Source of the DNA: Candidatus Shapirobacteria bacterium
Lineage (GTDB): Bacteria; Patescibacteriota; Microgenomatia; UBA12405
Assembly (NCBI GenBank): GCA_028704635.1
Contig: JAQWFB010000004.1
Span: 66,656 to 111,556 of the forward strand
Length of the DNA stretch: 44,901 nucleotides
Direction: 5' to 3'
Shown: piece by piece, positions 1,728-39,562 of the stretch
Layout of the letters: every line of letters begins with the position of its first letter
How positions within the stretch are numbered: the stretch's first letter is position 1
Made by a program: the position numbers and the translations under genes
The notes under the pieces: model-generated
Seen by the model: the letters and a program-made list of their open reading frames with translations, nothing else
Told to the model about the DNA's origin: nothing
Database searches by the model: none

Positions 1728-3416
1728 ATGTTTTCCGAGATTATTTTAAAAAACAAAAAAATAATAGACAAATCTTTTTCAGAATCAGATTTTTTAGATC
1801 TTTTGTTAAAAAATCGTCAAATTAAAAAATCAGACTATGATGATTTTTTTAAACCTCATTTTCCTATCGATTTAGATTTCAACGTTAATAAAAAAGAACT
1901 AAAAAATGCCACAAATAGGGTTAATTTAGCCATTAAAAATAATGAAAATATTTTAATTTATGGCGATTATGATGTTGATGGTATCACTGCCACCGCCATT
2001 CTTTGGCAGGTTTTATACCAAAAAGGTGCCAAAGTTTTGCCATTCATTCCAGATCGCGAAGCCGATGGTTATGGTATTAAATCAAAGTCATTTTTCGATT
2101 TTGAAACTCAAAAAAAGATTCATTTTGATCTTTTAATAACCGTCGATAATGGTATTGTGGCCAATCTCGAGCTTGAAAAAATTGCCAAAAAAAACACCGA
2201 TATTATTATTGTCGATCATCATTTGCCGACTGAAGATTTACCTAAAGTTTCAGCCATAATTCATTCCACCGATTTTTCTGGTGCGGCTCTTTCTTGGTTT
2301 TTTTCCACCCAATTCGATAAAAATGCTGATATTGGTTTGGCCGCTGCTGGAACTGTGGCTGATTGTCTTCCTTTAGTTAGTATTAATAGAAGTATCGTTG
2401 TTCATGGTTTAAAATCTTTGCGAAAAAATCCCAATCATGGATTAAAAAAATTAATCGAAGTCAGTGGTATTAAGCAAGATTCGGTTTCTGCTTATGATTT
2501 AGGTTTTGTCATTGGTCCGCGAATCAATGCCGTCGGACGTCTTTCAAATCCAACTGAAGCCCTCCGACTTTTATGCAGTCAAAATTCAATCCAGGCCGAT
2601 AAATATGCCCAAAATTTAGACAAATTTAATAAAGACCGTCAGGATATTCAAAAAGAAAATTTAAAAATCGCCGAAGAGATTATCAGTAGAGACGTTCTGC
2701 AGAACGTCTCTACTTTAAATAAAAAAAATGTTTCCACTCAAAATAAATTAATTTTTATTTCCCATAAAGAATTTTTACCAGGAATCATTGGCTTAATTGC
2801 CGGTCGTTTAACCGAAAAATATTATTTACCCTCAATTATTATCAGCGTTGGCGATGAATATTCCAAAGGTTCTTGCCGATCAATCAAAGAATTAAATATC
2901 GTCGAATCACTTCGACAGTTTAATGACGATTTAGTTGACCTAGGTGGCCATGCCGGTGCTGCTGGCTTCACTATTAAAACCACTAATATTAAAAAATTTC
3001 AAAATAAAATTACTGATTACATAAATCAACAGCTTAAAGATATTGATTTAAAACCAACAATTATTGTCGAATCAGAAATGAAATTATCTGCAGTCAATAT
3101 TAAAAATTGCCGATTAATAGGAAAATTAGAGCCATTTGGCATTGACAACACCAAGCCTTTATTTCTATTTAAAAATCTTCGCATTATTCAAAAAAGAGTT
3201 CTCGGTTCTACTGGTGATCATTTAAAACTAAAGCTCGATGATCCCAATACTAATAAATTAGAAAATATTCCCGCCGACGCCATTGCTTTTAAAAAAGGTG
3301 ATTTAGATAATCAATTTCAAAATGGTGATTTAATTAATATAATTGCCTCCCTTGATTTAAATATCTGGAACGGCCAAACCTCTCCCCAACTCATCGTCAA
3401 AGAAATCTTTACCTAA
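1728..3416 (+). CDS. recJ: single-stranded-DNA-specific exonuclease RecJ
   Basis: DYDVDGITATAIL, VDHH, GPRINAVGRL, GGHAGAAGFT (DHH/DHHA1 motifs). Confidence 0.96.
   Translation: MFSEIILKNKKIIDKSFSESDFLDLLLKNRQIKKSDYDDFFKPHFPIDLDFNVNKKELKNATNRVNLAIKNNENILIYGDYDVDGITATAILWQVLYQKGAKVLPFIPDREADGYGIKSKSFFDFETQKKIHFDLLITVDNGIVANLELEKIAKKNTDIIIVDHHLPTEDLPKVSAIIHSTDFSGAALSWFFSTQFDKNADIGLAAAGTVADCLPLVSINRSIVVHGLKSLRKNPNHGLKKLIEVSGIKQDSVSAYDLGFVIGPRINAVGRLSNPTEALRLLCSQNSIQADKYAQNLDKFNKDRQDIQKENLKIAEEIISRDVLQNVSTLNKKNVSTQNKLIFISHKEFLPGIIGLIAGRLTEKYYLPSIIISVGDEYSKGSCRSIKELNIVESLRQFNDDLVDLGGHAGAAGFTIKTTNIKKFQNKITDYINQQLKDIDLKPTIIVESEMKLSAVNIKNCRLIGKLEPFGIDNTKPLFLFKNLRIIQKRVLGSTGDHLKLKLDDPNTNKLENIPADAIAFKKGDLDNQFQNGDLINIIASLDLNIWNGQTSPQLIVKEIFT
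2685..2714. repeat. 30-bp perfect palindrome (28-bp GTAGAGACG-family element) inside recJ, in frame
   Basis: AGTAGAGACGTTCTG|CAGAACGTCTCTACT. Confidence 0.95.
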
Positions 3417-3607: not shown

Positions 3608-3964
3608 GTGGAAAATCAAAATCATACAGAGGAACAACTTGTCATAGCCGAAGAAATTTCTAGAAAATTTGAAATACCATTAATTGACGTTTTAGATGCA
3701 CTTAATTTTCTACCAGAATGTTCTTCTGAGACAGTTGAAGACGCTATGTCAGAATATTACAAAAACGCCCTAGATTGCCCGCAAAAAAGAGCTGCTCTCT
3801 ACAAGTGGAATAAGCTTATTATCGGTTTAGCCAATGCAGCCACTACTTGTGAAGAAATTGCAATAATTCTTTCTAAAACCCCACCAAAAAGAAGTAAAGT
3901 TGATAGCGAATCCCAAAAAATAACTATCAATAAAATCTACGAACTTTATTTAAACTCAAAATAA
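3608..3964 (+). CDS. small hypothetical protein (118 aa), GTG start
   Basis: ORF with SD-like aggtg, long leader, strong terminator downstream. Confidence 0.65.
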   Translation: MENQNHTEEQLVIAEEISRKFEIPLIDVLDALNFLPECSSETVEDAMSEYYKNALDCPQKRAALYKWNKLIIGLANAATTCEEIAIILSKTPPKRSKVDSESQKITINKIYELYLNSK

Positions 3965-3985
3965 TCTCTTCAAAAAATATTTATC

Positions 3986-4031
3986 AACACCGTATTATTT
4001 TTACAATAAAATGTAAAATAAATACGGTGTT
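3986..4031 (+). terminator. two-storey hairpin intrinsic terminator
   Basis: AACACCGTATT-(TTTTACA/TGTAAAA inner stem)-AATACGGTGTT followed by T-run. Confidence 0.88.
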
Positions 4032-4051
4032 TTTTTTGTTAAAATACTCCT

Positions 4052-5848
4052 ATGGAAAGAACACTTGCAAACGACTGCCTCCAAAAAATCGGAGAAAAAG
4101 TTTTACTTCAAGGTTGGGTTAATAATATCCGCGATCACGGTCAACTAATTTTTATCGATTTCAGAGATTGGAGCGGCACCGTTCAAATTGTTGTCAATGC
4201 TAATAATAATTCTGAAATTCACAAACTTGCATCCACTATTGGTTTAGAATGGGTAATTGAAGTTGAAGGTCAAGTTGCTAACCGTGATTCAAATGCTGTT
4301 AATAAAAAAATAACCACTGGTTCTATCGAAATTACCTGCGAAAAACTAACTGTTTTAAATAAAAGCGAGGTTTCTCCTTTTCCTCTCGATACCGACGGTA
4401 CCGAGCTTGATGAACCCTTACGTTTAAAATATCGTTATCTCGACTTGCGTCGTCCTCGTCTCGCCAAAATTATTCAAGACAAACATAAATATATTTTAGC
4501 CGTCCGCAATTGGATGGATAAAAATAATTTTATTGAAATCATCACTCCGCTTTTAACCACCACTTCGCCAGAAGGTGCTCGCGATTTTTTAGTTCCTTCT
4601 CGCATTCACAAAGGCAAGTTCTTTGTTCTTCCTCAAGCCCCCCAACAATTTAAACAATTATTAATGGTTTCTGGTGTCGATAAATATTTTCAAATTGCTC
4701 CTTGTTTTCGCGACGAAGATCCTCGTGCAGATCGTCACGCCGGCGCTTTTTATCAAATCGACATGGAAATGAGTTTTCCTACCATCGATAAAATTTTTAC
4801 CACTGCCGAAAATTTAATTAAAGAAACTTATCAAACTGTTGCTCCTCAAAAAACCATTGCCAAATTTCCTTTTCCCCGAATTTCTTACAAAGAATCCATG
4901 GATAAATATGGCAGCGACAAGCCTGACACGCGTTTTGGCTTAGAATTACAAAATATTACTGAAATCGTCAAAGGCAAAAGCGATTTTAATGTTTTTAACA
5001 ACGCTGAAATTGTTAAGTGTATTGTTGCTCCAAAATGTGGCGAATTTAGTAAAACTCAAATTGATAAATTAGAAAATTTAGCCAAAGAAAAAGGCGCTAA
5101 AGGTTTAGCCTACACTAAAGTTCTCGATGGAAAATTAGACACTGGTGTGGCTCGATTTTTTGATGCCCAATTACAACAGGAAATTATAAAATCAGTTTCC
5201 GCTGATGTTGGTGATTTAATTCTTTTTGTTGCCGATAAACCAACTACTACCAATAAAGTTCTTGGAAGTATTCGCCTATCATTAGGTGATATTTTAAATC
5301 TTCGTGACCCAAATGTTTTATATTTCAATTGGATCACTGATTTCCCGTTTTATGAATTTAATGATGATGGTGATTTAGATTTTGGACACAATCCCTTTTC
5401 TATGCCTCAAGGTGGCATGGAATCTCTAAAAAATAAAGATCCATTAAATATTGAGTCTTACCAATACGATCTAACATTAAATGGTTTTGAATTAGCATCC
5501 GGATCAATTCGTAATCACGAACCAGAGACTCTTGTTAAAGCTTTTGAAATTGTTGGTTACAACCGAGACGAAGTTATTAAAAAATTTGGTGGTTTATATA
5601 ATGCCTTTCATTATGGTGCTCCACCACATGGTGGCTGGGCCATTGGACTTGATCGTCTTTTAATGTTATTTCTCGACGAACCAAATATTCGTGATATTTA
5701 TGCTTTTCCTTTAAATTCTAATGGGGTTGATCTTTTAATGAACGCTCCTAGTGAGATAGATCAACATCAACTCGATGATGTTGGTTTAATATTAAAACCA
5801 GAAATCAAAGCAGATCTAAAAAATGAAAAAATCGATTCTAAAACGTAA
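4052..5848 (+). CDS. aspS: aspartyl-tRNA synthetase
   Basis: class II motifs: [33 protein letters not shown]. Confidence 0.97.
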
Positions 5849-12987: not shown

Positions 12988-13256
12988 TGATCATTCCAAA
13001 AGAAATTAAACAAAAACCAGTAGAATATATTTTTTTATTATTAATCTTTATTATTGGATTTTTTTTATACGTTTTTATTAATAACTCCCAAACTAGAATA
13101 TGGATAGTTTCCGGAGTTGTTCTATCCTATTTTGGTTGGAGTTTATATCACCACCAAAAAAGGGGAGATTTACACACTTCAATTATCATTGAATATTTAC
13201 TTATTATTTTGTTTGGGCTTGTTTTTCTTTTATTTGATCCATTTGCCATTTTTTAA
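12987..13256 (+). CDS. small membrane protein (89 aa)
   Basis: hydrophobic ORF overlapping the upstream stop; converges with and overlaps trmD. Confidence 0.55.
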   Translation: MIIPKEIKQKPVEYIFLLLIFIIGFFLYVFINNSQTRIWIVSGVVLSYFGWSLYHHQKRGDLHTSIIIEYLLIILFGLVFLLFDPFAIF

Positions 13257-13932
13257 TTTTTTTTGGGTCGCCACTTACTAAAACTTCTGGTACTTTATAA
13301 CCCATAAAATCTTGAGGTCTAGTATATTGGGGATATTCAACTGTTCTTATTTTTTTTCCATCAATTTCAATTTCAGACCAGCTTTCAATTTGACTCGATT
13401 TATCTTTTCCTAATACTCCTGGAACCAATCTTGCCACCGCATCAGTTATTACCATTGCTGGTAATTCTCCTCCAGTTAATACATAGTCGCCTATCGATAT
13501 TTCCTCATCTACCATAAAATCAGAGATTCTTTGATCAAATCCTTCATAATGTCCAGCAATCAAAATTAAATTATCCAATTTAGCCAATTCTTCAGCCTTT
13601 TTCTGATCAAACTTTCTTCCTCTCGCCGACATCAAAATTATCTTCGATTTTAGACCTCTCCCTTTTTTAAGGGGAGATGTCGCTTTAGCGACAGAGAGGT
13701 TTTGATTTTTAATTGTTTTTAAAGCATTAAACACCGGTTCTGGCCGAATCAACATTCCTACATCGCCTCCAAATGGCTTATCATCTACCGATCCATAACT
13801 ATCTATCGCCCAATCCCTCAAATTATGAATTTTTAAATTAATAATTTTATTTTTTATTGCTCGATTAATTATGCTTTCAGCAAAAGGTGACTCAAACATT
13901 TTAGGGAACAATGTGACAATATCTATATTCAT
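13204..13932 (-). CDS. trmD: tRNA (guanine-N1-)-methyltransferase
   Basis: MNIDIVTLFPKMFESPF, GHYEGFDQRI, SIGDYVLTGGELPAM. Confidence 0.96.
   Translation of the reverse strand: MNIDIVTLFPKMFESPFAESIINRAIKNKIINLKIHNLRDWAIDSYGSVDDKPFGGDVGMLIRPEPVFNALKTIKNQNLSVAKATSPLKKGRGLKSKIILMSARGRKFDQKKAEELAKLDNLILIAGHYEGFDQRISDFMVDEEISIGDYVLTGGELPAMVITDAVARLVPGVLGKDKSSQIESWSEIEIDGKKIRTVEYPQYTRPQDFMGYKVPEVLVSGDPKKIKKWQMDQIKEKQAQTK
13652..13701. repeat. multi-hairpin repeat in frame inside trmD
   Basis: outer ACCTCTC/GAGAGGT; inner CCCTT-tttt-AAGGG and TGTCGCT-tt-AGCGACA. Confidence 0.85.
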
Positions 13933-25722: not shown

Positions 25723-25752
25723 TGTAGAGACGCCAGATCTGGCGTCTCTACA
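25723..25752. repeat. 30-bp perfect palindrome (28-bp GTAGAGACG-family element), intergenic
   Basis: TGTAGAGACGCCAGA|TCTGGCGTCTCTACA. Confidence 0.96.
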
Positions 25753-25763
25753 TTGAAAATCAT

Positions 25764-26840
25764 ATGAAAAATAATTCACCAATAATTGGTTTAGCTCCCA
25801 TGGATGGCATCACCGACGAAGCCTATCGTCTTCTTCAAACCGAAATTGCCAAACCAGATTTAATTTTTACTGAATTTGTTAGTGCGGAAGGTATCAGTCA
25901 TGGTGGAGTTAAATTATATGACACACTTTTATTTTCTGCCAAAGAACGCCCAATTATCGGCCAATTATTTGGTAAAAATCCAGAAAGTTTTTATAAGTCA
26001 GCCATTATTTTATCGGAATTAGGTTTTGATGGTGTCGATATTAACATGGGTTGTCCCGCCAAAACTGTCACTCAAAATGGTAGTGGTGCCGCTCTCATTG
26101 GTAAACCAGATTTAGCTGTTGAAATAATTCAAGCCACTAAAAAGGGGATTGATGATTGGTTTTCCGGCAAAATCAAAGTCACTGATCTTAGTCTCAACCA
26201 AAAAAGCCTTGCCGTTATCGAAAGAAATAAAAAATATTCTGTCTTTGATTTTGTAGAGACGCATCATGATGCGTCTCTAACTACCAAAAAACAAACGTCT
26301 CTACCCAAAACCAAACCAACCATCTCCGTTAAGACTCGTCTCGGCATTTCTGAATCAATTATCGAAAGTTGGGCCTCAATTTTATTGGCTCAAGACTTAG
26401 ATTTTTTAACCATTCATGGTCGCACCCTTAAGCAAGGTTATGCCGGATCTGCTGATTGGTCCGAAATTCAAAAAGTTGTTGAGTTGGCCAAAAATACTAA
26501 AACTAAAATTTTTGGTAATGGCGACATTCAATCAAAATTCCAAGGTTTAGAATTTTGCCAAAAGTACGGTGTTAATGGAGTTTTAATTGGCAGAGCCGCT
26601 TGTGGCAACCCTTGGTGTTTTAACGATTACACCGCCACTCCAAAAGAGCGATTTTCCGCAATGCTTCTTCATGCCCAATTTTTTACAGAAATTTTCCCCA
26701 ATCGTCGTTTCGACAGTCTCCGTAAAAACTTTTTATTTTATGCTTCCGGTCTATCTAATGCCAAACAACTTAGATCAAAATTAGTCCGATTAAATTCAAT
26801 TGAAGACCTTTTACAACTTGAAGCCGACTTTCAATCCTGA
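25764..26840 (+). CDS. dus: tRNA-dihydrouridine synthase
   Basis: GLAPMDGITDEAYR, VDINMGCPAKTVTQNGSGAALI, VKTRLG, LTIHGRTLKQGY, GNGDI, GVLIGRAACGNPW. Confidence 0.95.
   Translation: MKNNSPIIGLAPMDGITDEAYRLLQTEIAKPDLIFTEFVSAEGISHGGVKLYDTLLFSAKERPIIGQLFGKNPESFYKSAIILSELGFDGVDINMGCPAKTVTQNGSGAALIGKPDLAVEIIQATKKGIDDWFSGKIKVTDLSLNQKSLAVIERNKKYSVFDFVETHHDASLTTKKQTSLPKTKPTISVKTRLGISESIIESWASILLAQDLDFLTIHGRTLKQGYAGSADWSEIQKVVELAKNTKTKIFGNGDIQSKFQGLEFCQKYGVNGVLIGRAACGNPWCFNDYTATPKERFSAMLLHAQFFTEIFPNRRFDSLRKNFLFYASGLSNAKQLRSKLVRLNSIEDLLQLEADFQS
26253..26304. repeat. 28-bp GTAGAGACG-family palindrome in frame in dus, plus an adjacent half-arm (CGTCTCTAC, 26296-26304)
   Basis: TAGAGACGCATCA|TGATGCGTCTCTA at 26254-26279. 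Confidence 0.93.
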
Positions 26841-28602: not shown

Positions 28603-28640
28603 TTCCCCTCCTTGTCAAAGGAGGGGTTAGGGGTGGATTT
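28603..28640. repeat. GC-rich dispersed hairpin repeat
   Basis: CCCCTCCTT-gtca-AAGGAGGGG followed by TTAGGGGTGGATTT. Confidence 0.75.
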
Positions 28641-39515: not shown

Positions 39516-39562
39516 ATCTCTCCCTTTTTTAAAGGGAGAAACGGCGAAGCCGAGAGGGATTT
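39514..39562. repeat. multi-hairpin repeat (same architecture as the trmD insert), intergenic
   Basis: TCTCCCTTT-ttt-AAAGGGAGA, CGGC-gaa-GCCG, GAGAGGGATTT. Confidence 0.8.

Follow-up and report, generated by a model that had tools for sequence, protein, structure and literature searches.

The recJ gene in the window (the whole 44,901-nucleotide stretch of Candidatus Shapirobacteria DNA that was analysed, with a coding density of about 94%) raises the question of how a perfect palindrome came to lie inside its reading frame, and what might have moved it there. The gene (1728..3416, + strand) encodes 562 amino acids with DHH, DHHA1, and RecJ_OB domains. The palindrome at 2685-2714, AGTAGAGACGTTCTGCAGAACGTCTCTACT, is 30 nt long, with 15-nt arms and a loop of zero. 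It consists of a 28-nt element, GTAGAGACG-TTCTGCAGAA-CGTCTCTAC (2686..2713, no strand assigned), and the A and T that flank it. The first-pass annotation had described this element as in frame and free of stops, and the translation of the ORF at 1728-3416 bears this out: the element encodes SRDVLQNVST, residues 320-329, between the DHH and DHHA1 domains. Folded as a single-stranded DNA hairpin, it has a predicted energy of -11.1 kcal/mol (z = -6.5), with a 12-bp stem and a 4-nt loop, and GTAG is paired with the terminal CTAC.

The RecJ loop with and without the element

In the AlphaFold2 model of RecJ (25 RecJ sequences; mean pLDDT of 90.9), the pLDDT falls below 50 in one segment only, residues 324-337, which follows the long linker helix 287-322 and precedes the strand 342-346. 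The alignment to the solved RecJ structure 8y30 has gaps in the same stretch as the insert. This puts the insert in a linker that is probably disordered and lies apart from the conserved motifs; a surface loop, as had been claimed, is thus probable from the model. Most likely, the 10 inserted residues lengthen the DHH-DHHA1 linker in a tolerated, near-neutral way.

The closest relatives in the RecJ alignment, G003 (80% identical) and G004 (78%), both lack the insert residues. The loop reads AEKNNLNNKNKL in G003 and AEEENLNNQNKL in G004, and AEEII-SRDVLQNVST-LNKKNVSTQNKL in the window; the former two are empty alleles, and the claimed insertion in recJ is confirmed by them. The indel that the ortholog alignment had been expected to reveal is there as an absence in the closest relatives, but it is not a clean one: the filled allele is longer by 45 nt, which exceeds the palindrome, because 15 more nucleotides of the loop follow the 30-nt palindrome downstream. 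A later or additional change in the recJ loop is therefore indicated. Within these 15 nt, AATGTTTCCACT (2727..2738, + strand) matches the right arm of the element at 9 of 12 positions, and is possibly an older decayed half copy of it.

The case that the annotation had named as refuting, in which the RecJ sequence is ancestral and palindrome-like by appearance only, has next to no probability. No supporting point was found for it; the residues are absent altogether in the closest relatives, and copies of this 28-mer are found at several loci elsewhere in the genome. The empty alleles and these other loci together rule it out.

Two of the other copies are in the window, both zero-loop palindromes with no strand assigned. 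The second copy, with the core CCAGATCTGG, is at 25724..25751, between an RRM-protein gene and dus. The third, with the core CATCATGATG, is at 26253..26280 within dus itself (tRNA dihydrouridine synthase; 25764..26840, + strand), where it is in frame as VETHHDASLT and its last base is degenerate (GTCTCTAA). As had been read before, the two in-gene copies use different frames: A-GT AGA GAC GTT... in recJ and GTA GAG ACG in dus; reading in the third frame would produce TAG. Downstream of the dus copy, an extra half arm matching CGTCTCTAC is found at 26296..26304 on the - strand. At no more than one mismatch, GTAGAGACG occurs 8 times in the window, compared with 1.9 expected from dinucleotide shuffles, none of which reached 8. 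In the 1.0-Mb genome (G000), the pattern TAGAGACG-N-CGTCTCTA gave 21 matches and the reversed control pattern gave 0. The recurrence of the palindrome in the window and in the genome is not due to chance. GTAG...CTAC is without mismatch in 18 of 22 G000 matches. Allowing up to three mismatches over 28 nt added few copies, which means that the arms of the element are nearly uniform. Ten of the 21 exact-arm copies are within genes; the hosts identified by Pfam are RecJ, Dus, LeuS, PheT, Pth, DnaX, a Wzy_C/TPR protein, and a Y1 transposase.

Distribution of the element and its candidate mobiliser

In total, 186 copies were catalogued in 22 genomes, all draft assemblies, of one family of Candidatus Shapirobacteria (Patescibacteria). 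The element is present in 21 of the 35 sampled genomes of the family, and additionally in G057, and in none of the 22 genomes of other families. G000 has 21 exact-arm copies, and the highest number in a genome is 41, in G029. Among the 28-nt copies (n = 170), which have 50 different cores, 120 are fully self-complementary; where a core is mismatched, it is usually by a single G-T or A-C step. The flanks of the element show a T-rich bias, and a 2-nt flank repeat is about twofold over expectation; a strong target motif was rejected, since the flank composition gives the T-rich bias only. Tandem half copies were likewise rejected as a general feature (12 family-wide versus 7 in the control, with no clear enrichment of half arms).

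Seventy-eight copies (about 42%) are intragenic, 98 are intergenic, and 10 are at ORF ends. The 81 robust intragenic copies are all in the two stop-free frames, 49 in the VET..SL frame and 32 in the xRD..VST frame. This agrees with the claim that only two frames are tolerated; however, these counts should be read with the ORF criterion in mind, which excludes the TAG frame by construction, and that frame is not scorable in this set because TAG ends the ORF.

The copies outside genes are mostly between tandem or convergent genes (28 copies in the convergent case), with a median distance of 27 nt to the 3' end of the nearest upstream gene. This placement, together with pairing that is perfect despite varied cores, would fit a functional RNA or DNA site, namely a transcript hairpin, an operator, or a terminator, with a regulatory role for the position in recJ. 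Such a role is very improbable. The sense-strand mismatches of the in-gene copies have no G-U bias (8 G-T versus 12 A-C), by which selection of an RNA hairpin through G-U wobble was rejected. Furthermore, the sites are patchy between sister species, and the recJ copy has no T-run directly after it.

The copies track a divergent RAYT (REP-associated tyrosine transposase). The RAYT gene of G000 (L076, 1873-2448) has a Y1_Tnp match and contains a copy of the element. Its best NCBIfam match, REP_Tyr_transpos, scores 45-51 bits, below the cut-off of 80; by sequence, no match was found among solved structures. In each of the 16 best RAYT loci examined (E < 1e-35), an exact-arm copy lies within the gene or close to it, and several of these loci have two to four copies sharing one core. 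A more distant RAYT in G002 is accompanied by GTAGGGGCG palindromes in place of the element. Among named genomes, the identical 28-mer is found in Candidatus Shapirobacteria and in one Ignavibacteria genome. On the Ignavibacteria contig (L095), the RAYT at 3904-4482 carries the 28-mer inside its ORF (GRDVLQNVST) and also upstream, and it is 32% identical to the G000 RAYT. This suggests transfer of the repeat and the transposase between phyla, or misbinning. The plasmid collection gave four weak repeat matches only, one of them in a cyanobacterium, and RAYT matches of no more than 35% identity, all of which are useless for tracing the origin. Searching the literature for the arm sequence gave only unrelated papers among those listed.

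Cleavage of single-stranded REPs is known for the RAYTs of E. coli, Stenotrophomonas, and Marinomonas, and GTAG takes part in recognition or site choice (PMC8266576). The RAYT of G000 might cut the single-stranded element likewise, and it is the best candidate for the mobiliser. The element is probably a mobile palindrome of a Shapirobacteria lineage, REP-like and tagged with GTAG, which a divergent RAYT (HUH/Y1 transposase) from the same genomes would move in trans. The RAYT would recognise the single-stranded hairpin starting with GTAG, cut it, and rejoin it elsewhere, as homology and association suggest. The insertions would scatter over T-rich flanks, and a purifying step would leave within genes only those with a frame-keeping length, TAG out of frame, and a disordered host loop. 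Insertion into recJ would have occurred once in the G000 lineage, most simply after its split from the two closest relatives, as the empty sisters support. Core changes would probably arise when one arm mutates and is then followed by copying from the other. It should be mentioned that several points stand against this reading: the paired GTAG, the sub-cut-off score of the RAYT, flanks that are only T-rich, the shared frame and column at common sites, the two-gene tree, and the draft assemblies.

Probable parallel filling of the same protein loops

The RecJ loop is occupied in other species of the family as well. Intact copies are found in G025 (core TTGCATGCAA) and G029 (TGATTAATCA), copies decayed at the right end in G020 and G027, and a related GTAAGGGCG-type palindrome in G008. 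Each RecJ-filled genome adjoins empty sisters, except the G020/G008 pair, in a tree built on two genes, RecJ and Dus, which are both themselves hosts. The six filled Dus copies all read GTA GAG ACG (ATA in G030). In-frame copies are found in the conserved genes for RecJ, Dus, LeuS, PheT, Pth, and DnaX, and clustering of the hosts gave further common sites in PheT, Pth, and LigA-like, RuvB-like, and UvrC-like proteins, the last three being named from motifs only. Distant species have the RecJ, Dus, LeuS, PheT, and Pth loops filled with different cores, and in most cases their sister species are empty. The same loops, and others, would have been filled repeatedly, which we propose is because few loops tolerate inserts.

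At one orthologous site, nearly all copies are in the same frame, often in the same alignment column. This agreement of codon and frame across species exceeds what random independent insertion would require; target preference, selection at the protein level, or partial common descent may be behind it. Descent in its full form would mean a single entry into recJ, dus, leuS, and other genes in the family ancestor, homogenisation of the cores in each genome by gene conversion, and loss of the copies by precise excision in most lineages. The common column and frame at the RecJ, LeuS, and PheT sites across genera are consistent with it, as are site cores that match the common cores of the genome (for instance TTCCGCGGAA in the dus of G009 and TGATTAATCA in the recJ of G029) and the likeness of the cores that G000 and G003 have in the Wzy_C/TPR protein. 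In addition, excision of the IS200/IS605 type is scarless. However, a single gain would need 16 losses in RecJ, 13 in Dus, and 11 in LeuS, compared with 5, 6, and 3 changes for the 5, 6, and 3 filled genomes, respectively. The empty RecJ alleles of several genera have a conserved DKNIDLKNK-type sequence with no scars, and the fixed arms are intact in flanks that are barely alignable. Unrelated palindromes also occupy the LeuS and Dus loops elsewhere, such as the GTAGGGGCG palindrome in the LeuS of G021. Descent from a single entry therefore seems unlikely.

Exchange of insert-bearing RecJ, Dus, or LeuS alleles between species by homologous transfer is very unlikely. A LigA-like protein does have its site and its core, TCATTAATGA, in common between G009 and G029, but elsewhere nearly every shared site has differing cores, and the flanks differ between filled species.

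Two further loci were observed. In the recJ of G029, one core is found twice, at different sites and in the same frame (L037, 1991 and 2462). The LeuS loop of G001 (L323) encodes RSEATKQSLGDCHGLRSRNDV, and its DNA contains GCGACGAAGCAATCTC, a third type of repeat there, which we take to resemble CGTC-type repeats.

Relation to known palindromes and side observations

The element had been likened to the Rickettsia palindromic elements (RPEs). The analogy is sound, in that both are palindromic, lie in frame in conserved protein genes, and are apparently tolerated, but membership does not hold: Rickettsia RPEs are 105-146 bp (PMC2229807), and the short RPE-4/6 are assigned to the CGTC superfamily, which has no dedicated transposase (Di Nocera et al., PMC3733652), whereas the present element is 28 nt, GTAG-tagged, associated with a RAYT, and found in Shapirobacteria. 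It is best read as a variant of the GTAG-type REP that is RPE-like in behaviour, because its copies track the RAYT and because the Ignavibacteria RAYT carries the identical 28-mer.

According to Di Nocera et al. (2013, PMC3733652), GTAG REPs are associated with RAYTs and also occur inside genes, many of the copies being in genes for replication and repair. The element shares with them and with their REPtrons the GTAG start, a short stem-loop (within the 5-13 bp stem and 2-20 nt loop of the GTAG REPs), tens of copies per genome dispersed through it, complementary variation of the stem, a RAYT gene flanked by copies, and in-gene copies that include repair and tRNA-synthetase genes. It differs in that GTAG, normally unpaired at one end of a REP, pairs here with CTAC, the palindrome being symmetric throughout. 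The intragenic share of about 42%, the parallel filling of orthologous loops, and the Patescibacteria host are also different.

The IS200/IS605 family has single-stranded hairpins as its substrates and uses guide tetranucleotides (PMC8266576). Being related to Y1_Tnp, the RAYT is comparable to the TnpA (HUH, Y1) of that family, but the elements are non-autonomous 28-nt units and the transposase is of the REP-associated branch. The TIRs of TIRYT genes, some of which are self-complementary (PMC3733652), likewise flank a tyrosine transposase gene; the present element, unlike them, keeps the GTAG tag and has copies also inside the transposase gene.

REPs are usually described as extragenic. In contrast, this streamlined genome has nearly half its copies in genes, mostly those of core enzymes. 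Tentatively, and at somewhat less than an even chance, RAYT-driven palindromes may be a recurrent source of in-frame peptides in a reduced Patescibacteria lineage, refilling, independently in one species after another and with codon precision, the same disordered loops in core enzymes for repair and tRNA modification and in tRNA synthetases. If so, nature would have carried out a replicated insertion-scanning experiment, and the constancy of the frame at each site would indicate a target preference or a protein-level selection not yet described for REPs. The parallel filling makes testable both which protein sites tolerate peptides from mobile elements and how site-selective RAYT insertion is. 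No report of RAYT-linked palindromes in Patescibacteria was found in the literature searches.

Repeats of another kind are also present in the window. A loop of trmD (13204-13932, - strand) encodes ATSPLKKGRGLKSK from an inverted repeat of the CCTCTCCC...GAGAGG type, with its DNA at about 13655-13700; this looks like a second, unrelated family of in-gene palindromes. The intergenic hairpins CCCCTCCTTGTCAAAGGAGGGG (28605-28626) and TCTCCCTTTTTTAAAGGGAGA (39519-39539) may be relatives of the trmD repeat.
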